Shown: one piece after another, positions 9,176-51,160 of the stretch | How positions within the stretch are numbered: position 1 is the stretch's first letter | How the letters are laid out: every line of letters starts with the position of its first letter | Assembly (NCBI RefSeq): GCF_026967935.1 | Contig: NZ_JAPVBL010000002.1 | Coordinates: 698,969 to 762,968, forward strand | Source: Modestobacter sp. VKM Ac-2982 | Lineage (GTDB): Bacteria > Actinomycetota > Actinomycetes > Mycobacteriales > Geodermatophilaceae | Direction: 5' to 3' | Length of the DNA stretch: 64,000 nt | Notes under the pieces: model-generated | The model's input: only the letters and a program-made list of their open reading frames with translations | What the model was told of the DNA's origin: nothing | The model's database searches: none | Made by a program: the position numbers and the translations under genes

Positions 9176-9832
9176 TCAGCGGTCGCGCCAGTTCGGCCCC
9201 GTCCGGAGGCTCGCCCCGAGCTTGCGAGGGGTGAGGGGGACGGGGTCCTTCCGGAGCCACCACCCCAACCGCCGGGTCATCCAGGGCAGCAGCAGGTAGG
9301 TCATCACCGGGGTGAGGGTCAGCGTCATCACCGCCACCCGGAGGACGACGTGGGCCTCGGTCAGCAGCGCGCCCAGGGTGACCGTGGCCAGCAGGTTGAG
9401 CGGGAAGAAGACCAGCCAGATGGTGACCGCCTGCTTCCACCGCGGAGGTGCGGTGGACGCGGGCAGCTCCGTCGCGGCGTCCAGCGGTGCGTCGAACCAG
9501 CCCTCGATGCCGGTGCGCCGCTCGGTGCGGGTCACCTCGGCCAGCCCCTGGGCCGACCCGAGCCACCAGCGTCGCTCCGGACTGGCCTCCCAGGCCGTCA
9601 TCGTCGCCGGTGAGTCGAAGCGGCACAGCATGTGCCACTCGTGGGCGTCGTGGCGGGGGCGGACCCAGCCACCGCCGAGGAACCCGGGGAAGGCCTCGGC
9701 CATCGTCAGTCCCGCCCGGATCCAGGCGGTCATCTCCACCGCGTGGGCCGGGTCGGCCCGCCGGGTGAAGGAGACGGTCACCGGCAGCTGCGGGGTCTCC
9801 GCGAGCGCCGGCACCGGGACAGTGCTCTCCAT
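9176..9832 (-). CDS. Membrane-anchored antibiotic-biosynthesis-monooxygenase (ABM) domain protein
   Basis: The protein is 218 residues. Residues about 15-100 form a ferredoxin-like ABM fold (PVTVSFTRRADPAHAVEMTAW, EWHMLCRFDSPATMTAWEAS). They are followed by two hydrophobic helices (about 132-155 and 163-185) and a basic tail. Similar ABM-plus-two-helix proteins are known in bacteria, usually with unknown substrate. The last 20 codons coincide with a copy of the stem-loop repeat described at 9197-9251. It converges on the response regulator gene with only six bases between stops. Confidence 0.75.
   Translation of the reverse strand: MESTVPVPALAETPQLPVTVSFTRRADPAHAVEMTAWIRAGLTMAEAFPGFLGGGWVRPRHDAHEWHMLCRFDSPATMTAWEASPERRWWLGSAQGLAEVTRTERRTGIEGWFDAPLDAATELPASTAPPRWKQAVTIWLVFFPLNLLATVTLGALLTEAHVVLRVAVMTLTLTPVMTYLLLPWMTRRLGWWLRKDPVPLTPRKLGASLRTGPNWRDR
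9197..9251 (-). repeat. Structured repeat, copy 3 (inside the ABM gene)
   Basis: On the minus strand this reads GGAAGGA, then CCCCGTCC, a 33-base interior, and GGACGGGG. The two 8-mers pair perfectly. The interior again has an inner stem (CTC-A-CCCC with GGGG-C-GAG). The edge and architecture match copies at 10713-10770 and 24327-24385, but the outer-stem sequence is different. Here the element is translated as the ABM protein tail instead of following a stop codon. Confidence 0.6.
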
Positions 9833-9909
9833 GGCCCCAGCATCCCTGGCGCGGATGTCGCGGGGATGTCGGGTCTGTCACCGGCGTCCAGCGGCGTGGC
9901 GCTGACCTC

Positions 9910-10659
9910 GTGCACAGGTCCACTGGCGACGATGCCTGGGTGGACGTCGTCAGCTCGCTCTGGGAACAGGTCTCCGCGACCTCTCCCCCGCTGCCGCTCT
10001 GGCTGCTCGTCCTGACCGCGGCGCTCGCCGCTGCCCTGGTCCTCTCCCCCACCCTGTGGCAGCGGGCCCGGCACTCGGTGACGATCGCGCACGAGGGGGC
10101 GCACGGCCTGGCCGCCCTGGTCACCGGCCGGCGGCTGGCCGGCATCCGCCTGCACTCCGACACCTCCGGCGTCACGGTGTCGGCCGGCCGGCCCAGCGGC
10201 CCCGGCATGGTGCTGACCGCGGCCGCGGGCTACACCGGCCCGGCCCTGTTCGGGCTGGGCGCGGCGGCGCTGCTGGCCGCCGGGTTCGCGATCGGCCTGC
10301 TGTGGGCCCTGCTCCTGTTGCTGGCCCTGCTGCTGGTGCAGATCCGCAACTGGTACGGCCTCTGGTCGGTGCTCGTCACCGGCACCCTGGTCTTCGCCGC
10401 CACCTGGTGGCTGCCCGCGGCGGGCCAGTCGGCGTTCGCGGCCGGCGTCACCTGGTTCCTGCTGCTGGCGGCGCCGAAGACCGTCCTGGAGCTCCAGGCC
10501 AAGCGCCGCTCGGGCACGGCCCGGGACTCCGACGCCGACCAACTGGCCCGGCTCACCGGGCTGCCGGGGATCGTGTGGGTCGCCGCCTTCCTGCTCGTCG
10601 ACGGTGGCGCCCTGCTGCTCGGCGGCTGGTGGCTCCTCCGCGACACCGCCCTCCTCTGA
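9910..10659 (+). CDS. M50-like integral membrane metalloprotease
   Basis: The 249-residue protein carries the zinc protease motif HEGAH (His61, Glu62, His65), placed after a first hydrophobic segment at 29-47. It then has several further helices (about 98-120, 122-138, 150-170, 220-245). It fits the actinobacterial M50B-like family of small membrane peptidases, some of which cleave within the membrane. The start is uncertain: an in-frame GTG at 9940 would remove ten residues. No partner anti-sigma factor is adjacent. Confidence 0.78.
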   Translation: MHRSTGDDAWVDVVSSLWEQVSATSPPLPLWLLVLTAALAAALVLSPTLWQRARHSVTIAHEGAHGLAALVTGRRLAGIRLHSDTSGVTVSAGRPSGPGMVLTAAAGYTGPALFGLGAAALLAAGFAIGLLWALLLLLALLLVQIRNWYGLWSVLVTGTLVFAATWWLPAAGQSAFAAGVTWFLLLAAPKTVLELQAKRRSGTARDSDADQLARLTGLPGIVWVAAFLLVDGGALLLGGWWLLRDTALL

Positions 10660-10702
10660 CCCCGTGACCACCAGAATGGCCATTCTGGTGGGCACGGGGT
10701 CA
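10657..10702. terminator. 23-bp inverted repeat at the M50 gene stop
   Basis: The arms begin with TGACCCCGTG and end with CACGGGGTCA, and the centre is CCACCAGAATGG / CCATTCTGGTGG. Only one position mismatches over 23 pairs. The left arm includes the TGA stop of the M50 gene itself. It can form a very stable hairpin and probably terminates transcription from the left. Confidence 0.8.
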
Positions 10703-10712
10703 GTCGCCCCGG

Positions 10713-10770
10713 CCCCTCGCAGGGGCCCGGGCTGAGCTGACGAGGTCCGGGGGGGCGAGGGGGTCCTTCT
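10713..10770 (-). repeat. Structured repeat, copy 1 (directly after the GH65 stop)
   Basis: On the minus strand the GH65 gene ends GAC TGA and is followed at once by AGAAGGAC. An outer stem CCCCTCGC / GCGAGGGG (10755-10762 with 10713-10720) encloses 34 bases. An inner stem pairs CCCGGGCT with GGTCCGGG on the plus strand. Length and loop sequence match copy 2 at 24327, while the outer stem differs compensatorily. Termination or mRNA 3'-end protection is a plausible role. Confidence 0.7.
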
Positions 10771-13143
10771 TCAGTCGCTGGTGGGGCGGTTGCGGCGGCG
10801 GGGGGCGGCGTGCGGCGGCTGGCGCACCGGCTCCACCTCGGGGGCAGGCGGGATCTCCCACTCCACCGTCTCGCCGGTGACCACGATCGGCTTCCCGTGG
10901 TGCGCGATCTCCAATGACCCCTCGCCGTAGACCAGCCGGTAGCTGGCCTTCTCCTGGGTCACCGTGACCGACAGGCACTTCCCCTGGAACACCACCCGGA
11001 AGCGCAGCCGGCGGATCCGGCCGGGCAGCCGCGGGGCGAAGGTCAGCCGGCCACCGTGGTCGCGCATCCCGCCGAAGCCGGCGACCGCGACCGTCCAGCC
11101 GCCGGCCAGCGAGGCGATGTGGAGCCCGTGCCCGCTGTTGCCGTGCAGGTTCTGCAGGTCGGTCAGCGCGGCTTCGGCCCAGTAGTCGTGCGCGAGGTCC
11201 AGGTGCCCGGTCTCGGCGGCCATCACCGCCTGCACCGACGCCGAGAGAGAGGAGTCACGCACCGTCCGGGCCTCGTAGTAGGCGAAGTCGGCGATCTTCT
11301 CCTCGAGGGTGAAGGCGTCCCCCCGCAGGTGCAGGGCCATCACCAGGTCGGCCTGCTTGATGACCTGCTTGCGGTAGATGTCGAAGTAGGGGAAGTGCAG
11401 CAACAGCGGGTACTGGTCGGGCCGGGTGCCCTCGAAGTCCCACTCCTCGTGGTGGGTGAACCCCTCCGACTGCTCGTGCACCCCGAGGTCGGCGTTGAAC
11501 GGCACCCGCATGGCGTCCGCGGCGCGGGACCACAGCTCGAGCTCGTCCTCGCCCACCTGCAGCCGCGCGGCGGTGTCGGGCTGGCGGCGGGCGGCCTCGA
11601 CCGCCTCGCGCAGGTTCCGCTGCGCCATCAGGTTCGTGTAGACGTTGTTGTCCACGACGGCGGTGTACTCGTCGGGCCCCGTGACGCCGTCGATCCGGAA
11701 GCCCTGGCCGTCGTCGAAGTGGCCGAGCGAGGCCCAGAGCCGGGCCGTCTCGACGAGCAGCTCGGTGCCGTGGTCGCGGTCGAAGTCGTCGTCCAGGGTG
11801 GCGGCGGTGTAGCGGGCGACGGCGTCGGCGATGTCGGCGTTGATGTGGAAGGCCGCCGTCCCGGCCGGCCAGTAGCCCGACGTCTCCTCCCCGCGGATGG
11901 TCCGCCACGGGAACGCCGCACCGGCGTGACCCAGCACCCGGGCCCGCTCGCGGGCCAGGTCCAGCGTCGAGTGCCGCCACATCAGCGCGTCGCGCACGGC
12001 TGCGGGAGCGGTGTAGGTGAGCACCGGCAGCACGTAGGTCTCGGTGTCCCAGAACGTGTGGCCGTCGTACCCGTCACCGGTCAGGCCCTTGGCCGGGATC
12101 GGCTGCCGCTCGGCGCGCAGGCCGGCCTGCAGGACGTGGAACATGCCGACCCGCACCGCCTGCTGCAGCTCGTCGTCGCCCTCGACCTCGACGTCGGCCT
12201 CGTCCCAGTGCCGGTCCAGCAGCTCGCGCTGCTCCCGGACCAGCCGGTTCCAGCCGGCGAGCTTCGCGGTGGCCAGCGCCCCCTCCACCTGGTCCCGGAC
12301 GGCGGCCGACGAGCGGCGGCTGGACCAGCCGTAGGCCAGGTACTTCACCAACCGCAGCTTGGAGCCGGCCGGCAGCCGGGCGGCCAGCGTGTAGCGGGCC
12401 AGGTCCGGGGAGACCTCCAGGTCCTCGGTGGCCGAGTCCGGGATGTCGACCTCGTGGTCCATCCCGGCGGCCATCCGCAGCCGGCTGCCGGGGGTCTGGT
12501 GCACCAGGACGGCGTGCCGGCCGCGGCCCACGTGCAGCTCCGACTGCAGCGGCCGGGTCATCGCCGAGGCCGCGCGCGGGTCGTCGGACTGGGTCGTGAT
12601 CACGAACTCGTTGGCCAGCAGGTCCGACTGCAGCGCGATGTAGAGGTCGCCCTGGTCGTCGGTGCACTCCACGGTGTACTCGATCGCGGCGATCGAGCGC
12701 CGGGTCAGCGAGACCAGCCGGGTGCTGGTGACCCGGACCTGACGGCCGCTGGGCCCCCGCCACTCGGTCGCGCGGCGGAGCACGCCGTTGCGCAGGTCCA
12801 GGGTGCGGCGGTGGTCGATGACGTCGCCGTACTGCAGGTCCAGCGGGGTGTCGCCGACCAGCAGCCGGATCAGCTTGCCGTCGGTCACGTTGACCACGGT
12901 CTGGCCCTGCTCCGGGAAGCCGTACCCGGCCTCCGCGTAGGGCATCGGCCGCTCCTCGAAGAAGCCGTTCAGGTAGGTGCCGGGGACGACGACCGGCTCC
13001 CCCTCGTCGAGCGTGCCGCGCATCCCGATGTGCCCGTTGGCCAGGGCGAACACCGACTCGTTGACCGCCAGGGAGGCCAGGTCGACGCCGACCTCGGTCA
13101 GCGACCAGGGCTCGACCAGGAAGTGCGCGCGCCCCTGGGTCAC
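10771..13143 (-). CDS. GH65 family glycoside phosphorylase/hydrolase
   Basis: At 790 residues this has full family length. An N-terminal beta-sandwich is followed by the (alpha/alpha)6 catalytic domain, with GDGYDGHTFWDTETYVLP, the GVTGPDEYTAVVDNN segment carrying the catalytic acid Glu492, and the phosphate-loop region KQVIKQADLVMAL. GH65 enzymes split trehalose, maltose or kojibiose, releasing beta-glucose-1-phosphate when phosphate is used. The overlapping beta-phosphoglucomutase-like gene strongly favours a phosphorylase. A basic, Pro-rich tail ends RNRPTSD. It is cytoplasmic. Confidence 0.9.
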   Translation of the reverse strand: MTQGRAHFLVEPWSLTEVGVDLASLAVNESVFALANGHIGMRGTLDEGEPVVVPGTYLNGFFEERPMPYAEAGYGFPEQGQTVVNVTDGKLIRLLVGDTPLDLQYGDVIDHRRTLDLRNGVLRRATEWRGPSGRQVRVTSTRLVSLTRRSIAAIEYTVECTDDQGDLYIALQSDLLANEFVITTQSDDPRAASAMTRPLQSELHVGRGRHAVLVHQTPGSRLRMAAGMDHEVDIPDSATEDLEVSPDLARYTLAARLPAGSKLRLVKYLAYGWSSRRSSAAVRDQVEGALATAKLAGWNRLVREQRELLDRHWDEADVEVEGDDELQQAVRVGMFHVLQAGLRAERQPIPAKGLTGDGYDGHTFWDTETYVLPVLTYTAPAAVRDALMWRHSTLDLARERARVLGHAGAAFPWRTIRGEETSGYWPAGTAAFHINADIADAVARYTAATLDDDFDRDHGTELLVETARLWASLGHFDDGQGFRIDGVTGPDEYTAVVDNNVYTNLMAQRNLREAVEAARRQPDTAARLQVGEDELELWSRAADAMRVPFNADLGVHEQSEGFTHHEEWDFEGTRPDQYPLLLHFPYFDIYRKQVIKQADLVMALHLRGDAFTLEEKIADFAYYEARTVRDSSLSASVQAVMAAETGHLDLAHDYWAEAALTDLQNLHGNSGHGLHIASLAGGWTVAVAGFGGMRDHGGRLTFAPRLPGRIRRLRFRVVFQGKCLSVTVTQEKASYRLVYGEGSLEIAHHGKPIVVTGETVEWEIPPAPEVEPVRQPPHAAPRRRNRPTSD

Positions 13144-13880
13144 GGGGCCTCCTCCAGCAGCTGGTCCAGGTCGGTGACGACGACGTCCGCGCCGCGCTCG
13201 CGCAGCCCGTCGGCCTGGCCCACCCGGTCGACCCCCACGACGTAGCCGAAGTCACCGGCCCGTCCGGCGGCGACCCCGGACAGCGCGTCCTCGAACACGG
13301 CGGCCTGGCCCGGCTCGACGCCGAGGGCCCGCGCACCGGCCAGGAAGGTGTCCGGGGCCGGCTTGCCGCGCAGCCCCTGGGCGGCCGCGACCACCCCGTC
13401 GATCCGGGCGTCGATCAGGTCGGCGAACCCGGCGACGGCGACCACGTGCTCCCCGTTCGCCGACGCCGTGACGACGGCGGTGGCCAGGCCGGCGTCCCGC
13501 GCCGCCCGCAGGTACCGCATCGAGCCCTCGTAGACCTGCACGCCGTGCTCGTCCAGCTCGGCCATGATGAGCTCGTTCTTCCGGGTCGCGACGCCGGCGA
13601 CGGTGACCACGTCGGCGAGGTCGTCGTCGCTGCCCTCGTCCAGGGTGATCCCCCGGCTGGCCAGGAAGTCCCGGACGCCGTCCTTGCGCGGCTTGCCGTC
13701 GACGAACTCGTTGTAGTCGGCGAGGCTGAACTCCGCCGCCCCGGGGTCCCGGTTCCGCAGGAACTCGTCGAAGGTGCGTTTCCAGGCAGCCTGGTGCACC
13801 TTGGCCGTCTGCGTCAGGACCCCGTCGAGGTCGAACAGGCAGGCCCGGATGTCTTCGGGGAGTCCCAGCACGCCCGACAC
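13140..13880 (-). CDS. HAD hydrolase, beta-phosphoglucomutase family
   Basis: The protein has 246 residues. It begins with the HAD nucleophile motif [12 protein letters not shown] (Asp17, Asp19), then a cap domain, the motif II threonine in [12 protein letters not shown], Lys in [15 protein letters not shown] and the acidic motif [14 protein letters not shown]. It overlaps the GH65 gene by four bases. Beta-glucose-1-phosphate from that phosphorylase would be converted here to glucose-6-phosphate. The pair thus forms a disaccharide catabolic unit. Confidence 0.9.
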
Positions 13881-13985
13881 GCTACGGCGAGACGACCGCC
13901 GGGACCTCTCGGGACCCCCTCCCCTCGCTGATCCGCACCCGCAGGGTGCGGTCGGTGGCCACGCGGGCGGTCGGTCGAGCGGGCG

Positions 13986-14001
13986 GTGTTGGGGATAACG
14001 G
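13986..14001 (+). promoter_or_regulatory. 16-bp motif GTGTTGGGGATAACGG, copy 2
   Basis: This is identical to 3404-3419 and lies 119 bases upstream of the PEBP gene start. Sequences on either side of the two copies do not match, so the conservation is confined to the motif. No shared -35-like hexamer was seen at a fixed distance. Confidence 0.5.
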
Positions 14002-14119
14002 TCAACTGACTGGGAACGACCACGCGACCAGGCGCCCGTGCGCGCGGCTGCCTAGGGTCGGCGGCGGGCACGCCGCCCCGGCGCCACCGCCGAGGCCCCA
14101 CCACCCGAGGAGGACCCGC

Positions 14120-14659
14120 ATGGCCGCTCGACCCACCGCGCCCGACCCCTACGACTCCCTGCCCCCCGTCCCCGCGTTCCAGGTGACCAGCACCGACCTC
14201 ACCGACGGCGAGCCGATGCCCCAGCCGCAGGTGAGCGGCAAGATGGGCCTCCCGGGGGGCGAGGACCGCTCACCGCAGCTCAGCTGGTCCGGGTTCCCGG
14301 ACGGGACCCGCGGCTTCGCGGTCACCGTCTACGACCCCGACGCCCCGACGGCCAGCGGCTTCTGGCACTGGGCGGTCACCGGCCTGCCGGCCTCGGTGAC
14401 CGAGCTGCCCACCGGCGCCGCCGACGGCGGGCTGCCCACCGGCGCGGTGCAGCTGCGCAACGACGCGGGGTTCGCCGGCTACGTGGGTGCGGCACCGCCG
14501 GCCGGGCACGGCCCGCACCGCTACTTCGTCGTGGTCCACGCACTCGACACCGACGACCTCGGCGTGCCGGCCGAGGCGACCCCGGCCTACCTCGGCTTCA
14601 ACCTGTTCAGCCACACCCTCGCCCGGGCCACGCTGGTCGCGACGTACGAGGTGCAGTGA
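14120..14659 (+). CDS. YbhB/YbcL-type PEBP (Raf kinase inhibitor-like) protein
   Basis: From ATG 14120, with an AGGAGG ribosome site, the protein is 179 residues. The phosphatidylethanolamine-binding fold is marked by [34 protein letters not shown] and [13 protein letters not shown], the ligand-pocket DPD and H residues among them. It has no signal peptide. Bacterial members bind small anions or lipids, and their physiological role is largely unknown. The 16-bp motif upstream suggests shared control with the GH15 gene. Confidence 0.9.
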
Positions 14660-14665
14660 CCTGTC

Positions 14666-14706
14666 GTCCGGCGGAGGCGGCGGGTCCCCGCCCGCCTCGG
14701 CCGGAC
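14666..14706. terminator. Imperfect hairpin between convergent genes
   Basis: A roughly 19-bp imperfect stem starts with GTCCGGC and returns as GCCGGAC around a short TCC loop. It lies just after the PEBP stop and before the stop of the opposing GNAT gene. Confidence 0.6.
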
Positions 14707-14744
14707 GGCCGCGCGGTGTCTCAGCCGGAGGGCCGTCCGGTCCG

Positions 14745-15575
14745 TCAGCCGGGAGGGCGCTCGGCGACGCAGCTGGTGGCCACCCGGGCGAAGCCGGCGC
14801 GTTCGTAGACCCGGGCGACGTCGTCGTCGCCGGCGGAGAGGAACACCAGGTCGGCGGTCTGCCGGGCGTGCTCGACCAGGGCCGAGGTGAGCCCGGCTCC
14901 CAGGCCGCGCCCGCGGAACCGGGGCAGGGTGGCAACGCCCACGACCTCGCTGACCTCGATGCCGTCGACCTGCAGCGGCTGGTGCGACCCGATCGCGACC
15001 GGCTCGCCGTCGTCGACGGCCACCATCATCACCGTCGAGCCCGAGGCCACCCGGTCGCGCAGCACCTCGGTCGGCGGCACCTCGGCGGGACCGGGGTCGT
15101 CCTGGGCCACCTCCGGGCCGCTGTGCGACCCCTGGTCGGCGGGTGCCGGACCGGGCGAGGCGAACGCGAGAGCGGCCAGCCGCTGGTACAGGCCCAGCCG
15201 GGGGTCATCGGCGCCCACCAGGTACAACCGCACCTCGCTGGGGAGCAGGACCGCGACCGGGTCGTCGGCGACCAGCAGCGGCAGCTCGTCGACCACCAGC
15301 CCGGCCGTCCGCGCAACGGTGGCCAGGCCGTGGCAGCGGTCCTCCAGCCACTCCAGCGCCGCCGGCAGCCCGGCCTGCTCCTGCAGCGCGATCGCGGCCC
15401 GGACGTCGTCCAGCGCGATGTCCCCCTCGAACCCCGGCCGCGGCCGGGCCGGGTAGGGCCACTCCACCCGGCCGATGGGCACCTGCAGCGCACCGATGGA
15501 GTGCACCCGGGCATCGGCCAGCGGGGCAAGGGCGAAGTAGCGCTCGATCCGGTCGAGCAGCCCGGGCGACGACAC
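14745..15575 (-). CDS. GNAT-family N-acetyltransferase
   Basis: In this 276-residue protein the C-terminal 110 residues are a typical GNAT domain, with acetyl-CoA pyrophosphate loop VATLPRFRGRGLGAGLTSAL near 216-236 and the AGDDDVARVYERAGF segment. The N-terminal 150 residues look like a degenerate second GNAT-like domain, as in two-domain GNAT proteins of actinobacteria. The acceptor substrate is unknown. It is convergent with the PEBP gene and divergent from coaA. Confidence 0.8.
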   Translation of the reverse strand: MSSPGLLDRIERYFALAPLADARVHSIGALQVPIGRVEWPYPARPRPGFEGDIALDDVRAAIALQEQAGLPAALEWLEDRCHGLATVARTAGLVVDELPLLVADDPVAVLLPSEVRLYLVGADDPRLGLYQRLAALAFASPGPAPADQGSHSGPEVAQDDPGPAEVPPTEVLRDRVASGSTVMMVAVDDGEPVAIGSHQPLQVDGIEVSEVVGVATLPRFRGRGLGAGLTSALVEHARQTADLVFLSAGDDDVARVYERAGFARVATSCVAERPPG

Positions 15576-15666
15576 CCCCGGACCCTAACGGCCGACGGGG
15601 GTCAGGCGCTCCGGCAGCCGCCCGGTACCCACCCGGCCGGGGGGCGCGCGGCGGGCAGACGGCACC

Positions 15667-16629
15667 ATGGGCGCCGTGACGGCCGGTCAGCGAGCGCAGG
15701 TCTCGCCCTTCACCGCGTTCGACCGCCAGTCCTGGCGGGCGTTGGCCGCGGGCGGTGAACTGCCGCTGGACGACGCCGACGTCCGGCAGCTGGCCACCCT
15801 GGGCGACCGGATCGACCTGGACGAGGTGTCCACCGTCTACCTGCCGCTGGCCCGGCTGCTGCACCTGCACGTCACCGCCAGCCGGCGGCTGTGGGCCGCC
15901 CAGACCCAGTTCCTCGGCGCCCGCACGGAGAAGGTGCCCTTCGTCATCGCCGTGGCCGGCAGCGTCGCCGTCGGCAAGAGCACCACCGCCCGGCTGCTGC
16001 AGGCGCTCCTGGCCGCCGCCCCCGACACCCCGCGGGTCGATCTGGTCACCACCGACGGCTTCCTGCTGCCCAACGCGGTCCTGGAGTCCCGGGGCCTGCT
16101 GGGCCGCAAGGGCTTCCCGGAGAGCTACGACCGGCGGGCACTGCTGCGTTTCCTGGCCGACGTCAAGTCCGGCAAGCCGGCGGTCAGCGCCCCGCTGTAC
16201 TCCCACCAGTCCTACGACGTGCTGCCCGACGAGCGCCAGGTCGTCGACTCCCCCGACGTGCTGGTGCTGGAGGGGCTCAACGTGCTGCAGGCCGGCGCCC
16301 GGAACGACGGCCGGGTACCCGAGGTCTTTCTCTCGGACTTCTTCGACTTCTCCGTCTACGTCGACGCCACCGAGCACGACATCTCCCAGTGGTACGTGGA
16401 GCGCTTCCTCGCCCTGCGCCGCACGGCGTTCCAGGACACCGGCGCCTACTTCCACCGCTTCGCCGACCTCACCGACGAGCAGGCCACGTCGACGGCCCGC
16501 GGGATCTGGGAAGCGGTCAACGAGCCCAACCTGCGGCTCAACATCGCCCCCACCCGGTCCCGCGCGCGCCTGGTGCTGCAGAAGGCCGCCGACCACTCGG
16601 TCCGCCGGGTGCTGCTGCGCAAGCTCTGA
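15667..16629 (+). CDS. coaA: Type I pantothenate kinase
   Basis: The 320-residue protein has the P-loop GSVAVGKST at 98-106, the DGFLLPN and KGFPESYD motifs, and [10 protein letters not shown], all standard for type I PanK. It catalyses ATP-dependent phosphorylation of pantothenate, the first and controlling step of coenzyme A synthesis, in the cytoplasm. A GTG three codons downstream is an alternative start. It appears to be transcribed alone. Confidence 0.95.
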
Positions 16630-16838
16630 CCCACCGCGCGCTGGCAGAAGGTGGCCACCGCGGACGACCGCGTGCTGGCGGTGCCGGTCAGCCGCCGTTC
16701 CGAGCGGGGGTCGACGCTGCAGTGCGCGGCGTGATCCTGTTCGACGGCGACGGCGGGCTGCGCCCCGACGGGCCGGTCGTGCTGCCCCGGCGCCGGGGCG
16801 GTCGTCGACACCGCGGTCACGCGGGCCGGGCGGTTCCC
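16630..16838. other. Intergenic stretch with possible coding debris
   Basis: The segment 16639-16734 reads in one plus frame as WQKVATADDRVLAVPVSRR and continues to a TGA. It has an amino-acid balance more protein-like than its surroundings but no start codon. It may be the tail of a lost gene. No family is recognised. Confidence 0.25.
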
Positions 16839-17717
16839 TCAGCCGAGGCCGGCTGCGTCGGCGGCCTGGGTCAGCAGGGTGGCGAACGCCGCCTGGTCCA
16901 GCGCGGCGTCGTCGGTGCCGGTCTGGGACAGCATCACCGCCCGCGGGCCGTCGGTGACGACCCCGACCAGCATCGAGACGGTGCCGGCCGGGTGGGTCAT
17001 CGTGACCGCCAGCCCAGCGGCGGAGTCCCCGCGGTCCGGCACGTCCAGCGCCGACACCCCGAAGCCGACCTCCATGCCCCAGGGCGCGTCGACGGTGGCG
17101 TCGGCGCACGCCTCGACGAGCTGGTCGACCGGCAGCTCCAGCCCTTCGACGGCCGGTCCCTCGGAGACCACCTGGAAGATGCGGACCTGATCAGAGGCGG
17201 CCACCTGGGCCGCGACCGCCGGCATCTCCTCGTCCTCGAGCGTCGGCAGGGCGGCCAGCGCGTCCGCGCAGGCGGCCGGCTCGACCGACGGCTCCGCGAC
17301 CGTGCCGTCCTCACCGGTGCCGTCGTCCTCGGTCGCGTCCTCGTCGGTGCCGTCCGCGTCGGTCCACCAGTGGTGACCACCCCACCCGCGGTGGTCACCC
17401 CACCCGCGGTGCCCCGCCCAGCCGTGGGGGTCACCCCACGACTCGCCCCCCGCCCACCATCCCGACCAGGGGCCGACCCACTCCGCCGGGAGCTGGTGGA
17501 CCGTGGCGTCGGGGCCGAACGCGGACTCCGGCAGCAGCGCACCGGCCAGGTCCTCCGCCGCGGCCTCCTCGGCCGCCGGGTCGGCGCTGCCCGTGGCCGC
17601 CGCCTCGCTCACCGCGGTCGGACCGGTGGCGTCGAACTGGCTCGCGCAGGAGCTCAGCACGGCCGTCCCGACGATCACTACCACACCGACCGACGAGCGA
17701 CGCACCAGGGTCCCCAT
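16839..17717 (-). CDS. Secreted lipoprotein with a His/Trp/Gly-rich segment
   Basis: The 292-residue protein starts with a lipoprotein signal: positive MGTLVRRSS, a hydrophobic core, and lipobox VLSSC with Cys24. Residues about 85-120 are packed with Gly, His and Trp in repeats of the type HGWAGHRGWGDHRGW. An acidic Asp/Glu/Thr linker follows, then a folded domain of about 150 residues with two cysteines. The His cluster could bind metal. No domain family is recognised. It is transcribed alone, downstream of gcvP but separated from it by 52 bases. Confidence 0.7.
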   Translation of the reverse strand: MGTLVRRSSVGVVVIVGTAVLSSCASQFDATGPTAVSEAAATGSADPAAEEAAAEDLAGALLPESAFGPDATVHQLPAEWVGPWSGWWAGGESWGDPHGWAGHRGWGDHRGWGGHHWWTDADGTDEDATEDDGTGEDGTVAEPSVEPAACADALAALPTLEDEEMPAVAAQVAASDQVRIFQVVSEGPAVEGLELPVDQLVEACADATVDAPWGMEVGFGVSALDVPDRGDSAAGLAVTMTHPAGTVSMLVGVVTDGPRAVMLSQTGTDDAALDQAAFATLLTQAADAAGLG

Positions 17718-17769
17718 GCATGGGGATGGTCCACCTTCCGGACCGCGCCGTCGACCCCTTCCCGGCGTG

Positions 17770-20784
<3,015 letters not shown>

Positions 20785-20851
20785 TGCTGGGACGGTACCA
20801 GCGTGTCGTCACCGTCCCGGTCCTCCAGGCGACCCAGGAGCCGGGGGTGTC

Positions 20852-21424
20852 CTAGGCCGAGGCGGCGCGGCGACGGCGGCGGGCGGACAGCTCGTCGTCG
20901 GCGGCGGAACCGCTGCCGTCCAGCCGCTCGGCCGGCAGCTCCGCCAGCTCACCGGAGAGCTCGCGGAGGGCGCCGGAGACCGCGATCCCGAAGACGCCCT
21001 GCCCACCGGCGAGCAGGTCGACGACCTCCTCGGCCGAGGTGCACTCGTACACGGTGGCGCCGTCGGAGAGCAGCGTGATGTTCGCGAGGTCCTTGACCCC
21101 GCGGGTGCGCAGGTGGTCGACGGCCTTGCGGATGTTCTGCAGCGAGACCCCGGTGTCCAGCAGCCGCTTCACGACCTTGAGCACCAGGATGTCGCGGAAG
21201 GAGTAGAGCCGCTGCGTGCCCGACCCGGTGGCGGTCCGCACCGACGGCGCGACCAGCCCGGTGCGGGCCCAGTAGTCCAGCTGCCGGTAGGTGATGCCGG
21301 CCGCGGCGCACGCCGTGGGGCCGCGGTAGCCGACGACGTCGGTGTCGACCTCGTCGTAGGACGGAACACCCACCGCCGCGTCGCTGAACAGTTGACCCTG
21401 TGAACCGTTGTCCTGGTCGCTCAC
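20852..21424 (-). CDS. MerR-family regulator (Rv1830-like)
   Basis: From GTG 21424 the product is 190 residues. The MerR winged helix (GYRGPTACAAAGITYRQLDY, RLYSFRDILVLKVVKRLLDTG) is followed by a domain without the metal-binding cysteines of classical MerR proteins, and a basic Ala/Arg tail. Its position beside the bifunctional nuclease and gcvP matches Rv1830 of M. tuberculosis. It lies 67 bases from gcvP on the same strand. Its target genes cannot be told from sequence. Confidence 0.88.
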   Translation of the reverse strand: MSDQDNGSQGQLFSDAAVGVPSYDEVDTDVVGYRGPTACAAAGITYRQLDYWARTGLVAPSVRTATGSGTQRLYSFRDILVLKVVKRLLDTGVSLQNIRKAVDHLRTRGVKDLANITLLSDGATVYECTSAEEVVDLLAGGQGVFGIAVSGALRELSGELAELPAERLDGSGSAADDELSARRRRRAASA

Positions 21425-21704
21425 GGGCACTCCTCGCTGGCACTGGTCTGCCGCGGTCGCGGCGCTGCTGGGTTCGTGCCGTCGCTCGCGGGCCCGCTCA
21501 CTCCAGCGCCTCCTCGACTCCGGCACCCAGCACCTGGGCCGTTCCCGCGCTGTCGCCGGGAGCGGTCACGGGCGCGACTCAGGGACTTCCACGCACGTGA
21601 TTCGCTGAAGGTAGGCCGGGGCCGCGACAGGGTCAACCGAGGGACGCGGCGTGTCGCTGCGCTCACCCGTGCGGGTGGGCCCGGTACCACGCAGAGCCGG
21701 TGGC

Positions 21705-22190
21705 TCAGCTGCCGCTGGAGCCGGAACCGGCGCCGAAGTCCTCGGGGCTGATGTTGTCCAGGAACTCGCGGAACTTCTCCACCTCGTCCTCCTGCTCGTC
21801 GGGGATCTCGATCCCGACCTCGTCGAGCAGGGCCTCGGCGCCGTAGATGGGGGCGCCGGTGCGGACGGCGAGGGCGACGGCGTCGGACGGCCGGGCGCTC
21901 ACCGTGCGCTCGTCGCCGAACTGCAGCTCGGCGAGGTAGATGCCGTCGCGCATCTCGGTGATGTGCACCGCCTCGAGGGTGGCGCCCAGGGCCGTGACCA
22001 CCTCACGCAGCAGGTCGTGGGTCATCGGCCGGGCCGGCCGGACGCCCTGCTGCTCGAAGGCGATCGCCGCGGCCTCGGTCGCGCCGATCCAGATCGGCAG
22101 GTACCGCTCCCCCTGGGTCTCCTTGAGCAGCAGGATGGGCTGGTTGCCGGGCAGCTCCACCCGGACGCCGACGACTCTGAGCTCCTGCAC
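21705..22190 (-). CDS. Bifunctional nuclease family protein (DUF151)
   Basis: From GTG 22190 the product is 161 residues. The BFN domain is evident: QPILLLKETQGERYLPIWIG, EAAAIAFEQQG, RPMTHDLLREVVTALGA and SARPSDAVALAVRTGAPIY. Plant relatives degrade RNA and DNA. The actinobacterial members (Rv1829-like) are conserved but little studied. The last 30 residues are acidic then Gly/Ser-rich. It lies between the two MerR genes. Confidence 0.9.
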   Translation of the reverse strand: MQELRVVGVRVELPGNQPILLLKETQGERYLPIWIGATEAAAIAFEQQGVRPARPMTHDLLREVVTALGATLEAVHITEMRDGIYLAELQFGDERTVSARPSDAVALAVRTGAPIYGAEALLDEVGIEIPDEQEDEVEKFREFLDNISPEDFGAGSGSSGS

Positions 22191-22308
22191 GTCTGGCTCC
22201 CCTCCGCTGAGTTCCCCGTGGCCGCCCCACTGGTCTGCCGACCGCCCACCGCGAGGCGGCCGACCGGTGTGCCGGGGCGCCCGCACCCCCGCAACGGTAC
22301 GCCAGCGA

Positions 22309-23031
22309 TCAGCCGCCGAGGACGTCGCGCAGCCGCGTCTCCAACAGCCCACCGTGCAGCTGTGCGGAGAGCTCGGCCAGCTCCTGGAGCTGCTCACCGG
22401 CCCGGGTGCGCGCCTCCTCGGAGCGGGCCAGTAGGACTGGGGCCACCAGCTGCTCCAGCAGGGCGGCCTCCCGCTCCACCGCCGTCCGGTACACCCGCAG
22501 GTGGCGCGGTTCGATGCCGTGCCGGGCCAGCCCCGCCACGGCCCGGCCCACGGGCAGGTCGGTGACCCGGTGCCGGCCCTGGGAGTCGGCGTTGAGCAGC
22601 CCGAACTGCACGCAGTCGGCCAGCTGGGCCGCCGACAGGCCGGCGGCCTCGGCGAACTCGCCGGCCGGCAGGGGCGCGCTGGGGACCGGCCCGCCGGCCA
22701 CCCCGCCGGCGGGGTGGCCGCCAGGGGGCCGCTCGCGACGATCGAGGGCGTCCAGGTGTTCCTTGATGACCCGCAACGGCAGGTACTGGTCCCGCTGGGC
22801 GGCCAGCACGTACCGCAGCCGGTCGACGTCGGCCACGGAGAACTTCCGGTAGCCCGACGGCGTCCGCTGCGGGTGGACCAGCTCCTCGGACTCGAGGTAA
22901 CGGATCTTGCTGATCGTCACGTCCGGGAAGTCGCCGCGCAGGGCGGACAGCACCTCACCGATGGTGAACCGGGGCGTGGTCTCAGCGGTGTCCCGGTCAG
23001 CGCTGGGGCTGGGCTGGGGCACCGCCGTCAT
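22309..23031 (-). CDS. ftsR: MerR-family regulator FtsR
   Basis: The 240-residue protein has an N-terminal MerR helix-turn-helix (FTIGEVLSALRGDFPDVTIS, YLESEELVHPQRTPSGYRKF), a Pro/Gly linker around 100-120 and an alpha-helical C-terminal domain. Position directly after garA and sequence match Rv1828 and Corynebacterium FtsR, which activates ftsZ transcription. It starts 47 bases after the garA stop, so the two are probably cotranscribed. Confidence 0.88.
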   Translation of the reverse strand: MTAVPQPSPSADRDTAETTPRFTIGEVLSALRGDFPDVTISKIRYLESEELVHPQRTPSGYRKFSVADVDRLRYVLAAQRDQYLPLRVIKEHLDALDRRERPPGGHPAGGVAGGPVPSAPLPAGEFAEAAGLSAAQLADCVQFGLLNADSQGRHRVTDLPVGRAVAGLARHGIEPRHLRVYRTAVEREAALLEQLVAPVLLARSEEARTRAGEQLQELAELSAQLHGGLLETRLRDVLGG

Positions 23032-23077
23032 GACCGGCGTCCGCTCTCGGCCCGCTCCTCGGTGCCCGACGCGGCGT

Positions 23078-23596
23078 TCATGCGCCGGCCGGCTCGCCCG
23101 TCCGCGGCCCGGTCAGGTAGACCAGGCGGAACTTGCCGATCTGGACCTCGTCGCCACCGGCGAGCGAGGCCACGTCGACCGGCTCGCGGTTGACGTAGGT
23201 GCCGTTCAGGCTGCCCACGTCGTGCACGGTGAACCCGCCGCCCTCGCGGTGGAACTCCACGTGCCGGCGGCTGACCGTCACGTCGTCGAGGAAGATGTCG
23301 CTGTCGGGGTGCCGACCGGCGGTGGTGACCTCCTGGTCGAGCAGGAAGCGGCTGCCCGCGTTGGGGCCCCGCTTCACGACCAGCAGGGCGGACCCGGCCG
23401 GCAGCGACTCGACGGCACCGGCGTGCGCGTCCGCGGTCGACTCGGCGACCTCGGCCTGCTCGCCGGAGTCCTCGCCGCCGACCTTGGGGATGATGCTGGT
23501 CGACTCGCCGACCCGCTCGGGGCTCAGCGCGGCCCCGCACTGCGCGCAGAAGCGGCTGCCCTCTGGGTTCTGGTGGCCACATCGAGTGCAGAGCAC
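23078..23596 (-). CDS. garA: GarA-like FHA protein with N-terminal zinc ribbon
   Basis: From GTG 23596, preceded by GGAGGAG at eight bases, the product is 172 residues. Cysteines 3, 6, 17 and 20 form a zinc ribbon (CTRCGHQN, CAQCG). Residues 31-34 read ESTS and align with the ETTS phosphorylation site of mycobacterial GarA. Residues about 72-165 are an FHA domain with GR, VSRRH and SLNGT phosphothreonine-binding motifs. By family knowledge, phosphorylated GarA folds back on its FHA domain and stops inhibiting 2-oxoglutarate dehydrogenase and activating glutamate synthase. Confidence 0.9.
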   Translation of the reverse strand: MLCTRCGHQNPEGSRFCAQCGAALSPERVGESTSIIPKVGGEDSGEQAEVAESTADAHAGAVESLPAGSALLVVKRGPNAGSRFLLDQEVTTAGRHPDSDIFLDDVTVSRRHVEFHREGGGFTVHDVGSLNGTYVNREPVDVASLAGGDEVQIGKFRLVYLTGPRTGEPAGA

Positions 23597-23869
23597 GTCG
23601 GTCTCCTCCGGTGCAGGCGGCACCGCCGCGGGCCTGGTGGTACGGGCCGCGGTCGGCCGGCGGACGACGGACCGGTCGGCCCGTCGTAGGTCGGCCGCCG
23701 CAGGATCACGGTCGGGCCGGGGGTCATGGAACCAGCGGCCGACCCGAGGGTCAACCGCACGTACAGGGTGAGGGTCGGACGCCGTCGTGGAGCTCACGGC
23801 CCGACCGTCGCAGTGATGATAGTGATCGTCGACCACCCCGGCGGGACGGTGGGGGGCCTGCTCCGCGAC

Positions 23870-24274
23870 TCAGGACGTCTGGACGATCGCCTCGTAGGCC
23901 GCGGCGTCCAGCAGTGCCGCGGTGGGGTCGCCGTCCTGCCCGGTCACCTGGACCTCGACCAGCCAGCCGGCGCCGTAGGGGTCGCTGTTGACCGTCTCCG
24001 GCGCGTCGGCCAGGGCCTCGTTCACGGCCGAGACGACACCGGCCACCGGCGAGTAGACGTCGGAGACGGACTTGGTCGACTCGACCTCACCGATCGCGTT
24101 GCCGGGGGCCACCTGCGCACCGACCTCGGGCAGCTGGACGAACACGATGTCGCCCAGGGCGTCCTGGGCGTGGTCGGTGATCCCGACGCGGACCACCGCG
24201 GCGGCACCCTCGGTGCCCTGGACCAGCGCCCACTCGTGCTGGGCGGTGTAGCGGCGGTCATCGGGCGTGGCCAT
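23870..24274 (-). CDS. gcvH: Glycine cleavage system H protein
   Basis: The protein is 134 residues, normal for the family. The lipoyl-accepting Lys68 lies in GEVESTKSVSDVYSP and is followed by the conserved NEAL and GAGWLVEV segments. It shuttles the aminomethyl group between P-, T- and L-proteins. It lies upstream of garA with a 270-base gap, which may contain a separate promoter for garA. Confidence 0.95.
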   Translation of the reverse strand: MATPDDRRYTAQHEWALVQGTEGAAAVVRVGITDHAQDALGDIVFVQLPEVGAQVAPGNAIGEVESTKSVSDVYSPVAGVVSAVNEALADAPETVNSDPYGAGWLVEVQVTGQDGDPTAALLDAAAYEAIVQTS

Positions 24275-24326
24275 GCGGCATCTCCAGGGATCGGGGTCGG
24301 TTCGGTGGCTGCAGTGGTGGCCGTGG

Positions 24327-24385
24327 CCTCGGTGCAGGGGCCCGGGCCGAGCGCCAGCGAGGTCTGGGGGCACCGAGGTCCTTCC
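24327..24385 (-). repeat. Structured repeat, copy 2 (directly after a DUF881 stop)
   Basis: On the minus strand the DUF881 gene ends GAC TGA, followed by GGAAGGAC. Outer stem CCTCGGTGC / GCACCGAGG (24370-24378 with 24327-24335) encloses 34 bases, the same length as copy 1. The inner stem pairs CCCGGGCC with GGTCTGGG on the plus strand. It separates the DUF881 gene from gcvH. Confidence 0.7.
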
Positions 24386-25360
24386 TCAGTCCCCGTCGTC
24401 CGGCTCAGCGTATTGAGGCGTGTCCAGTGGCCGCAACGCGTCCACGACGACGTCCTGCGAGGGCGCGATCACCACCTCGCCCCGGCGCTGGTTGACGGTC
24501 GCGGAGACCCCGCCGGGGATGTTCAGGGCGGTGGCCATGTCCTGGGGCGAGCCGATCACCCGGATGACGTAGGGGGCCTCCACGGGCTCCCCGTCGATCT
24601 CCAGGGCGCCCGGCTCGCCGGTGATGGCGCTGCTCACGCCGATCCGGACGTCGTCGATCTGCATCGTCTCCGCTCCCGCCCCGCGCAGCTCCTGGACGGC
24701 GTTCAGCACGACGCCGGCGGTGACCCGGTCGGCGGGGTCGCGGATGACCACCTCGAGCCCGGGACCGCGGGCGGCGACGGTGCCGTTGAGGACGCCCAGC
24801 GCCTCGGCCCGCTGCTCGGCCTCCGCGAGGGCAGCGGCCGCGGCGCTGTCGGAGCTGCCCAGTTGGGACAGCGCCGCCCGCTGGTCGCTGATCTCCTGGC
24901 GGAGCCGGTCCTCCCGGGCGGAGAGGTCGTCGAGGATGCGCACGAGGTCCTCTTCGCGCAGGCCGGCCAGCTGGGCGTCGGTGTCGGTGCTGCGCACCTG
25001 CACCGCGAAGGCGAAGCCCAGCAGCAGGGTGAGCACGCCGATGAGGAGCGCCGCCACCGGATCGCGCCGCCGTCGTCCGCCGGCCGGCGTCGCCCCGCCG
25101 CCGTCCCCGGCGGACGGCGGGTCGGCCGCCTCTGGCTCCCTCACGCCGTCCGCACCGGCGGGGTCGGCCTGGGGGCCCGGGGTCTGGGGGCCCGGGGTCT
25201 GGGGGTCCGGGGTCTGGTGGTCCGGGGTCTGGTGGTCCGGGGTCTGGTGGTCCGGGGTCTGGTGGTCCGGGGTCTGGTGGTCCGGGGTCTGGGTGTCCGG
25301 GGTGTCCCCCTCCGGCGGCTCGGGGTCGGACCGACGACCCACGGTCGGGTCCTCGGTCAT
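24386..25360 (-). CDS. DUF881 membrane protein with QTPDH repeats (Rv1825-like)
   Basis: The 324-residue protein has three parts. A hydrophilic N terminus (1-100) contains a nine-unit, five-residue repeat mostly QTPDH. One transmembrane helix lies at about 103-122 (AALLIGVLTLLLGFAFAV). An extracytoplasmic coiled coil and DUF881 domain follow. Mycobacterial relatives are linked to the cell envelope. It is the third gene of the pgsA-DUF881-Sbp-DUF881 operon, overlapping the upstream gene by four bases. Confidence 0.88.
   Translation of the reverse strand: MTEDPTVGRRSDPEPPEGDTPDTQTPDHQTPDHQTPDHQTPDHQTPDHQTPDPQTPGPQTPGPQADPAGADGVREPEAADPPSAGDGGGATPAGGRRRRDPVAALLIGVLTLLLGFAFAVQVRSTDTDAQLAGLREEDLVRILDDLSAREDRLRQEISDQRAALSQLGSSDSAAAAALAEAEQRAEALGVLNGTVAARGPGLEVVIRDPADRVTAGVVLNAVQELRGAGAETMQIDDVRIGVSSAITGEPGALEIDGEPVEAPYVIRVIGSPQDMATALNIPGGVSATVNQRRGEVVIAPSQDVVVDALRPLDTPQYAEPDDGD
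25171..25305. repeat. 15-bp tandem repeat, nine units, inside the DUF881 gene
   Basis: Nine head-to-tail copies of a 15-base unit of the type GGTGGTCCGGGGTCT occur. Five central copies are identical and the edges have drifted. Being a multiple of three, copy-number change preserves the frame and only alters the cytoplasmic QTPDH tract of the protein. Confidence 0.95.
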
Positions 25361-38173: not shown

Positions 38174-38336
38174 CAACCCTGCCTGCCGACCGTCATCCGC
38201 AACTCGTCAAGGCAGGGGTGGGGGAACCACCGCACACGACGCGCCGACGACCAGTCGGCTCGTCTCGGGGTGAAGCCGGCATCGCCGGCCGGGCACCGAT
38301 CGCCCGAACCCGACAGCTAACCCCTCAGGCGGTGAT
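38174..38336 (+). ncRNA. Cyclic-di-AMP riboswitch (ydaO-yuaA type)
   Basis: The leader contains the conserved islands of the actinobacterial ydaO class in order. These are a CCTGCC/GGCAGG closing helix (about 38179 with 38210), GGGGGAACCA at 38219-38228, CGGGGTGAAGCCGGC at 38266-38280, a CGCCGGCC hairpin, and CCCGAACCCGACAGCTAACC at 38303-38322 followed by CAGGCG. In actinobacteria this class switches off cell-wall remodelling genes, such as rpf and NlpC/P60-type genes, when c-di-AMP is high. Here it precedes a secreted envelope protein. Boundaries are approximate. Confidence 0.88.
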
Positions 38337-38347
38337 CGGAGATCACC
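38331..38347 (+). promoter_or_regulatory. Hairpin overlapping the ribosome-binding site
   Basis: GGTGATC, loop GGA, GATCACC form a perfect 7-bp stem that ends on the base before the ATG at 38348. The likely Shine-Dalgarno bases (GGAG) lie in its loop and stem. It directly abuts the riboswitch and could be its expression platform acting on translation. No terminator-like hairpin was found between the riboswitch and the gene. Confidence 0.5.
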
Positions 38348-50410: not shown

Positions 50411-51160
50411 CGTGGCGAGCTCCGTTCTCCCTCACCGTCTACCGAGTTAGCTGACGGGTTCGGGCCGGAGACAGCCCTACTCGCGGCGGCCCACTGGCCA
50501 GGCGAGACTCACCCCAAGGGAACGATGGGTCCCCGGTCTGCCACCGCGTGAGCGGCAGCAGTTCGACGGGGTCCGCGCGAGGACCTCTGGGCGAGATCGG
50601 GGCTCGGGTGGACCGGCCGAGACGCTACAACGAATCCCGATGGTCGTCACAATCCCGTAACGCCAGCCAACCATCGTGGCCAGCCGCACCTCTGCGGGCC
50701 AGTGCGTGTGCGCAGGCGGCCGATCAGGCGGATGCCGGACCGGACTCGATGCGCCTGAGCAGATCAGCAGCCCAAAGGCATGGACGGCAGGGTCGCGAGC
50801 CACCTGCCCGCGACCGACCGGGCCACCCTGCAGGCAGTTGCCGACGACGCCGGCGTGCCCCACCGGACCCTGTCCCGGTTCCTGATCACCTCGGCTGCCG
50901 TGACCGCCCTAGCACCAGCGCACTCCTGGGCCCGGTTGTCGACACTTCGAGCACACGCCCGCCTGCAGTGGCGTGCTCCTGCTTGTCGGAACTGTTCAGG
51001 CGGCTCTTCCCCTCGGGAACCCCAGTCGGTCATGCCCGGACGTTGGGACGAGCCAACGCTGCGGCCGGCACCCTGAGGTGCGGTGTTGCCGATGCTCCCA
51101 ATCCCAATCCCGATCGCAGGAGCGGAGGACCTCTGACTCCCGGCAACGCGCAGTGGCCCG
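50411..51160. other. Gene-free stretch
   Basis: No supported gene in 750 bases. The part next to 50410 should contain the M23 promoter. A relatively AT-rich patch lies at 50625-50665. On the plus strand around 50800-50900 one frame reads TDRATLQAVADDAGVPHRTL, which is protein-like but isolated and without a recognisable family, possibly a gene scrap. Confidence 0.35.

Follow-up and report, generated by a model that had tools for sequence, protein, structure and literature searches.

A folded repeat at stop codons in Modestobacter sp. VKM Ac-2982 and other Geodermatophilaceae

A 64,000-nucleotide stretch of the Modestobacter sp. VKM Ac-2982 genome (contig NZ_JAPVBL010000002.1, positions 698,969 to 762,968; hereafter the window) carries three copies of a folded repeat of about 60 nt, and raises the question of what kind of element this is and how it comes to lie at the 3' ends of genes. 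The copies had been reported in a first-pass annotation as structured sequences with differing, perfectly pairing outer stems and a compensatory change in the inner stem. All three are in the sequence, at 9195–9252, 10711–10770 and 24325–24385; the outer stems pair as described, and the inner-stem change is a G-U/A-U/G-C exchange at pair 20–40. The repeat is a dispersed palindrome whose left end is anchored at the stop of the gene before it, whose folding strand is antisense to that gene, and which comes and goes between sister species.

The repeat, its fold and its distribution

Taken alone, the three window copies could be due to chance, since the four occurrences of the octamer GAAGGACC in the window, where 1.7 are expected, are equalled in 14 of 100 shuffles, and the single-sequence folding z-scores of the copies are weak whichever strand is folded (0.0 to -1.6); it is the copies elsewhere in the genome that settle the matter. 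With one copy as query, BLASTN located the repeat at 17 places in the genome. A covariance model built from 14 other genome copies (A2), the three window copies being excluded from its rows, returned 89 matches with E <= 0.01 when 150 candidates were scored, so that the family claimed from three members has many more. The window copies themselves scored 60.4–62.7 bits, with E-values between 5e-12 and 2e-11 for 1.7 Mb.

The folding strand consists of an 11-bp outer stem, a 5/2-nt purine internal loop (AGGGG/GG), an 8-bp inner stem and a loop, GAGCnnGCGA; its 3' end reads CTTC-N followed by the complement of the host gene's stop codon. In the outer stem pair 2 is a nearly fixed G.U and the middle is variable. 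Among the 14 genome copies 99.2% of the cells pair and 7 of the 19 pairs are changed on both sides, giving a covariation score of 0.335 against 0.138 for shuffles (0/500 reach it) and at most 0.079 for slid controls; the compensatory changes first noticed by inspection are thus statistically significant. The same holds at a single orthologous position, the stop of the gene that precedes gcvH, where the alignment comprised 17 sequences (our own and 16 of 29 others): 8 of 19 pairs are double-changed (3/500 shuffles reach this) and the covariation score is 0.328 against 0.121 (0/500), the number of pair types there being unexceptional (54/500 shuffles).

The annotation had placed the structure on the minus strand; the better and conserved fold lies on the plus strand of the window. 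Of 70 copies given, 69 were parsed, and in all 69 the strand opposite to the preceding gene was the more stable, by a mean of 7.3 kcal/mol, with similar stabilities beside co-directional (36) and convergent (33) neighbours. Wobble pairs have the same polarity. At the 17 pairs outside two near-fixed G.U pairs, G.U outnumbers A.C on the folding strand by 43:7 in 75 distinct copies (binomial 2e-7) and by 39:8 in 91 distinct copies of a second set (6e-6), these sets being drawn from 77 and 94 matches aligned to the model and hence leaning towards it. Together, stability and wobble polarity place the conserved strand antisense to the gene whose stop the repeat touches. The suggestion of an RNA 3' element is accordingly not borne out, in that a hairpin in the preceding gene's own mRNA 3' untranslated region is not the conserved one.

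The structure is conserved and selection on it, as the annotation had proposed, is likely. Covariation alone is no proof of this, because copies of other subtypes occur at the same stop in sister species and paired arms may travel together; moreover, the covariation and wobble figures count sequences related by descent, any of which may take another's place, and thus overstate the number of independent events.

The repeat is widespread in the family. Searches of 22 Modestobacter relatives returned from 18 to at least 148 matches, counts saturating near 140 candidates scored; one genome (G008) had at least 146 with 150 candidates scored, and some genomes carry the repeat about 150 times. A scan of 112 genomes of the Geodermatophilaceae with stricter filters and 48 candidates per genome found at least one match in 102, representing 9 of 12 genera, and at least 45 in 85. 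The ten genomes with none (G039 and nine of genera g22–g24) are all fragmented assemblies, and low counts were found in G067 (1), G055 (2), G045 (5) and G114 (5). None of 16 genomes of other families of the order had any match. In a class-wide sample of 296 genomes, scored at 18 candidates per genome, matches at E <= 1e-5 occurred only in our own genome and, weakly (39–42 bits), in two genomes of one other family. Four distant relatives (L411–L414, in genomes G405 and G129) have the core in common, TTCGCAAGCTC or CTCGCnnGCTCG with GGGGCCCTC or similar; their outer arms differ, the GAAGGACC foot is missing, and two of the four begin within 5 nt of a called gene end. Rfam gave no match to the repeat in the window at the gathering score, and none with E up to 1 at four loci with repeats or distant relatives. 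Two cyclic di-AMP (ydaO/yuaA) riboswitch aptamers, at 50425–50568 (minus strand) and 38188–38346 (plus strand), scored above the gathering score.

Most copies are single, the genome holding four pairs within 150 nt, one of them inverted. Among 86 copies taken by pattern, eight are extended by GTTCCAGCACGTCACC; no gene was seen in these eight, and a larger autonomous element was rejected. Partial units, made of the 3' half plus GTTCCAGCACGTCACC, follow a full copy at two loci (L040, L061), in tandem at the first. Carriage by phages or plasmids was likewise rejected, one copy as query giving no match and one exact pattern giving none in viral contigs. Along one chromosome, among the matches listed and with the origin not located, strand bias is mild (40:29 and 45:32), too little to speak for a lagging-strand preference.

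Placement at stop codons

The left end of the repeat lies within -3 to +4 nt of a called in-frame stop of the preceding co-directional gene in 64 of the 89 matches, as against 0.8% of random intergenic starts in the window (233/28060), and this confirms the 3'-end location. Seven more begin at 5 to 12 nt and three at -12 to -4, copies 5–50 nt past a stop being rare. The remaining 15 have no called stop nearby, the calls being those of a simple gene caller that may miss genes; seven of the 15 show a stop triplet by pattern (two being second units of clusters) and eight show none. The spacing between stop and RGGAC, which could be measured in 65 of 74 copies, is quantised: TGA plus 3 nt in 35, TAG plus 1 nt in eight, and a spacer of 2 in none. 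In relatives 35 of 47 copies are within 12 nt of a stop (48 loci were given, of which one was unparsed, and one read reversed was counted as a miss). A syntenic set of 49 hits that includes the three window copies agrees with stop anchoring in 29 of 46, three overlapping or weak hits having been left out.

The bases before copy-bearing stops are biased. A at -5 precedes 24 of 65 such stops in our genome against 26 of 237 others (p = 5e-6), and 17 of 61 against 15 of 168 in relatives (p = 8e-4; 61 of 77 loci usable); C at -4 is raised to 0.80 and 0.77, respectively, from 0.59 and 0.58. The genes downstream are no different from those of the window at large: 42 convergent and 47 co-directional neighbours, compared with 20 and 33 (p = 0.3).

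In the window, placement at a 3' end holds for the second and third copies and not for the first, all three having the folding strand on plus. The copy at 10711–10770 directly follows the TGA (10771–10773, minus strand) of gene 10771–13143 (minus), presumably of GH65 type, and is absent after the equivalent stop in some sister species. That at 24325–24385 directly follows the TGA (24386–24388, minus strand) of gene 24386–25360 (minus), which we take to be of DUF881 type; it lies between this gene and the co-directional gene 23870–24274 (minus), presumably gcvH, and, of 29 further orthologous loci retrieved, 16 have a copy after this stop. The first copy, at 9195–9252, is inside the 3' part of an open reading frame (ORF), 9176–9832 (minus), which reads through it.

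Two other features of these neighbourhoods may be recorded. Between the same convergent genes as the second copy, at 10658–10701, lies another hairpin that has TGGCCA at its centre (CCACCAGAATGGCCATTCTGGTGG plus additional paired arms); by eye, TGGCCA-centred palindromes with other arms recur at this or other gene ends of sister species, and this looks like a second, unrelated class of 3'-end hairpin. The protein of gene 24386–25360 begins with a tandem PDHQT repeat.

Turnover and replacement

When 31 gene ends were compared with those of two sister species (G001 and G005), the 100-nt ends being 84–100% identical, the repeat was found to be kept, missing, inverted, shortened or of another subtype. 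The 62 comparisons gave 26 copies in the same orientation (including L039 in G005, where one stands beside an inverted copy), six inverted, three shortened or weak, and 27 without any. All six inverted copies lie against the 3' end of the convergent gene called there (L045, L051, and L093 and L094 twice each), and the subtype present at a given stop can vary from species to species (L084). By eye, some empty ends resemble hairpin deletions that leave AGG..GGCC (L087, L048). At one end (L030) the TGA of the repeat replaces the CAG-GTC-TGA of both sisters, and the gene is two codons shorter.

In three of the four intragenic cases compared the repeat replaced a nearly equal length of coding DNA (net -2, +3 and +3 nt). 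Two of these are in an SDR (short-chain dehydrogenase/reductase)/epimerase-type gene of our genome (contig C9, about 368064–368682) that is intact in seven orthologues; the first repeat is also present in G005. Measured from anchor to anchor, the first place is 64 nt long where the repeat is present, against 66 nt in each of the seven intact genes; at the second, 67 nt with the repeat compare with 61–64 nt in the eight genes that lack it, the three closest having 64. The third is a gene of Geodermatophilus tzadiensis that we take to be FxsA-like, with 140 nt where nine orthologues have 137, the frame staying open. One further copy inside a called gene (L055) is outside the four compared.

Stop triplets new to the target accompany two of these copies: TAG after CCAG in the SDR gene and, out of frame, CTGA after CGCCAG in the FxsA-like gene. 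As copies with CCAG|TAG- and CGCCAG|CTGA-type flanks occur at real gene ends (L032, L034, L281), the donor's stop triplet was apparently carried along in both cases, to judge from the flanks. No target-site duplication was seen at the junctions in either gene. An 8-nt repeat, GCGACTGA, flanks the window copy at 10713; it does not flank the orthologous copies looked at, and was rejected as such a duplication.

Origin of the repeat

The closest known habit is that of the REPs (repetitive extragenic palindromes), which occur in many phyla: location at 3' ends, stop codons supplied by the repeat, and some copies within ORFs. GTAG/CGTC REPs are described as high-copy, palindromic and mostly extragenic sequences near ORF 3' ends; the GTAG REPs often provide the stop codon, and some REPs lie inside ORFs (PMC3733652). 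Of 4,072 predicted REPs in E. coli, 446 are placed within 15 nt of a stop and are said to stall ribosomes (PMC12306157). The main texts of these two papers contain none of the family names searched. The present repeat resembles the REPs in its dispersed, mainly extragenic palindromic copies (89 matches). It differs in its foot, GAAG/CTTC instead of GTAG/CGTC, in folding over 60 nt into two stems interrupted by a purine internal loop, in occurring mostly as single copies, and in the replacement rather than insertion seen in three of four intragenic cases. The REP-associated tyrosine transposase (RAYT) was also sought: the Y1_Tnp domain (PF01797) was found in 0/112 family genomes at E <= 0.001, this one family of nucleases being the one covered, and a control search was positive in 5 of 14 genomes. 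REP-like, as the annotation had it, therefore stands in the broad sense of a repetitive palindrome; because two defining features fail, the foot tetranucleotide and the RAYT, the repeat is not a REP.

Other known systems fit less closely. Miniature inverted-repeat transposable elements, which are moved by DDE transposases and marked by terminal inverted repeats, a target-site duplication and net insertion, differ in that the junctions in the SDR and FxsA-like genes show equal-length replacement with no duplication seen; the contrast is confined to intragenic copies, the intergenic ones being often net additions. The mycobacterial interspersed repetitive unit (MIRU) is an actinobacterial repeat found at stop codons in one orientation; we believe its sequence and fold to be unrelated to ours (the sequences were not compared), and its tandem arrays are not seen here except as the partial units noted above. 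The attC sites of integrons lie directly after stop codons and are active as a folded single (bottom) strand, but no core boxes are evident in the repeat consensus (judged from the consensus only; no integrase search), and the host genes compared are syntenic chromosomal genes, not cassettes. In short-patch double illegitimate recombination, a single-strand patch replacement known from Acinetobacter, ectopic DNA overwrites a short segment through microhomology at its ends; there it is rare and random, whereas here one repeat family would use the process repeatedly.

The explanation we favour, with about as much confidence for it as against it, is that of a REP-like, transposase-orphan repeat spreading as a short folded strand that is copied into short matches, stop codons above all. 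The spreading form would be a short single strand, either the folding strand or its copy, which would anneal through short matches at its ends and become incorporated by copying or ligation, either in place of a similar stretch of target or as an addition of some 60 nt. The donor's stop triplet would often be carried along; since donors sit on stop codons, the stop codons of other genes would, on this proposal, be preferred landing sites. Copying would be driven by the host with no RAYT, and the outcome would be a hairpin at gene 3' ends that may also end transcription or slow terminating ribosomes. Where the repeat lies, how it folds and how it turns over are observed; its mechanism and function are inferred.

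Several observations weigh against this explanation. T at -5 is raised in relatives (0.34 against 0.07), exceeding the A enrichment, and is not raised in our genome (0.15 against 0.14), so that the base bias is not one fixed motif. Candidate sites away from stops are plentiful: [AC]CTGA occurs 43 times away from stops and 13 times at them in the called intergenic DNA of the window, and 44 and 58 times in 60 loci around copies, the figures for TGA being 277 and 51, and 277 and 169. None of the eight copies without a nearby stop triplet is at an [AC]CTGA site, and those few that have an uncalled triplet could be located after genes missed by the caller. A preference for short sequences is not enough by itself to account for the confinement to real stops, and targeting purely by TGA or CTGA was rejected as insufficient; as matching intergenic sites are common but not seen to be used, either translation termination or selection acting on the places where copies persist must add to it. 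The fourth intragenic case, the window copy at 9197, is no equal-length exchange: 63 nt replace 12, in frame, and where relatives read GWWL[QGRR]WRDR the ORF reads GWWL[RKDPVPLTPRKLGASLRTGPN]WRDR. Intergenic pairs with and without the repeat differ by 44–69 nt in 16 of 27 cases, by -18 to +10 in seven and otherwise in four, gain and loss not being told apart. Of 58 comparable ends, 10 have a different stop triplet (four of the 62 have no stop at that place), against one of 32 for window genes set beside two sister loci; at p = 0.09, and with four of the ten changed ends lacking the repeat in the sister, a link between the repeat and a switch of stop type is no more than suggestive.

A stronger form of the same proposal, that a folded single-stranded patch of about 62 nt, free of any transposase, anneals by a few of its end bases, overwrites an equal length and brings the donor's stop, gene ends being a self-reinforcing niche across the family, is tentative and somewhat doubtful.

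It is rather unlikely that the repeat is instead a functional 3'-end element under selection (a terminator, a protector of mRNA 3' ends or a ribosome-slowing hairpin) whose duplication is a by-product. The location suits such a role, as do the stalling ascribed to E. coli REPs that lie no more than 15 nt from a stop (PMC12306157) and other hairpin-like sequences seen by eye at the same ends in sister species (L044, L089, L040). The folding strand, however, runs antisense to the gene before it whether the neighbour is co-directional or convergent, and the same ends lack the repeat in those 27 of 62 sister comparisons. Convergent gaps are not clearly enriched and fold quality is the same in both contexts, on which grounds a terminator of the convergent gene was rejected. 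An intrinsic terminator is not indicated either, the terminator scan flagging 0/3 window copies; there is no U-run, and the folding-strand tail is GUCCUUCNUCA.

We consider it unlikely that the repeat is a non-autonomous transposon, acted on as a folded single strand, in REP-like or attC-like fashion, by an unrecognised nuclease whose target rule includes the stop codon. Its strand polarity, conserved mismatches and G.U pairs, precise left end and REP-like distribution would all agree with this, and GTAG REPs also supply stop codons (PMC3733652). The Y1_Tnp result (0/112, that one nuclease family having been searched), the lack of a constant target-site duplication, the equal-length replacement in coding DNA and the merely mild strand bias along one chromosome (among the matches listed) argue against it.

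That the paired arms were made by mutation, through template switching in imperfect palindromes and not by selection, would be compatible with the other explanations and is improbable. Hairpins are prone to arm correction, and one orthologous row (L128) has non-matching arms; arm correction would erase the fixed mismatches, and these persist at pair 2 (G.U in 60/71 and 82/89 cells), at the GA positions and in the internal loop. Insertion of an RNA copy by a reverse transcriptase primed at stop codons is very improbable: the folding strand does continue into the gene's antisense and our genome has one RVT_1 match (C9:555876), but RVT_1 was found in only 49 of 112 genomes, with none in the element-rich, complete G004 and G014 and one in the low-copy G045, a mismatch with copy number on which this explanation was disfavoured. 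The RVT_1 match (C9:555876–556526) lies in a 484-amino acid open frame, and single matches with frames of similar length occur in many genomes of the genus.

Whatever its mode of spread, the repeat alters stop codons, C-termini and gene calls, ORF 9176–9832 ending partly in repeat-encoded residues. REP-like repeats are textbook domesticated transposon remnants with a named enzyme; here the same habit, stop codons and a strand-specific fold, is met family-wide and at high copy number with no match to such an enzyme, with rapid turnover among sister species and with coding DNA overwritten at equal length. The repeat thereby offers a directly testable case of short repeats that would spread via host single-strand annealing or gap repair, and it bears on the gain and loss of hairpins at the 3' ends of genes.

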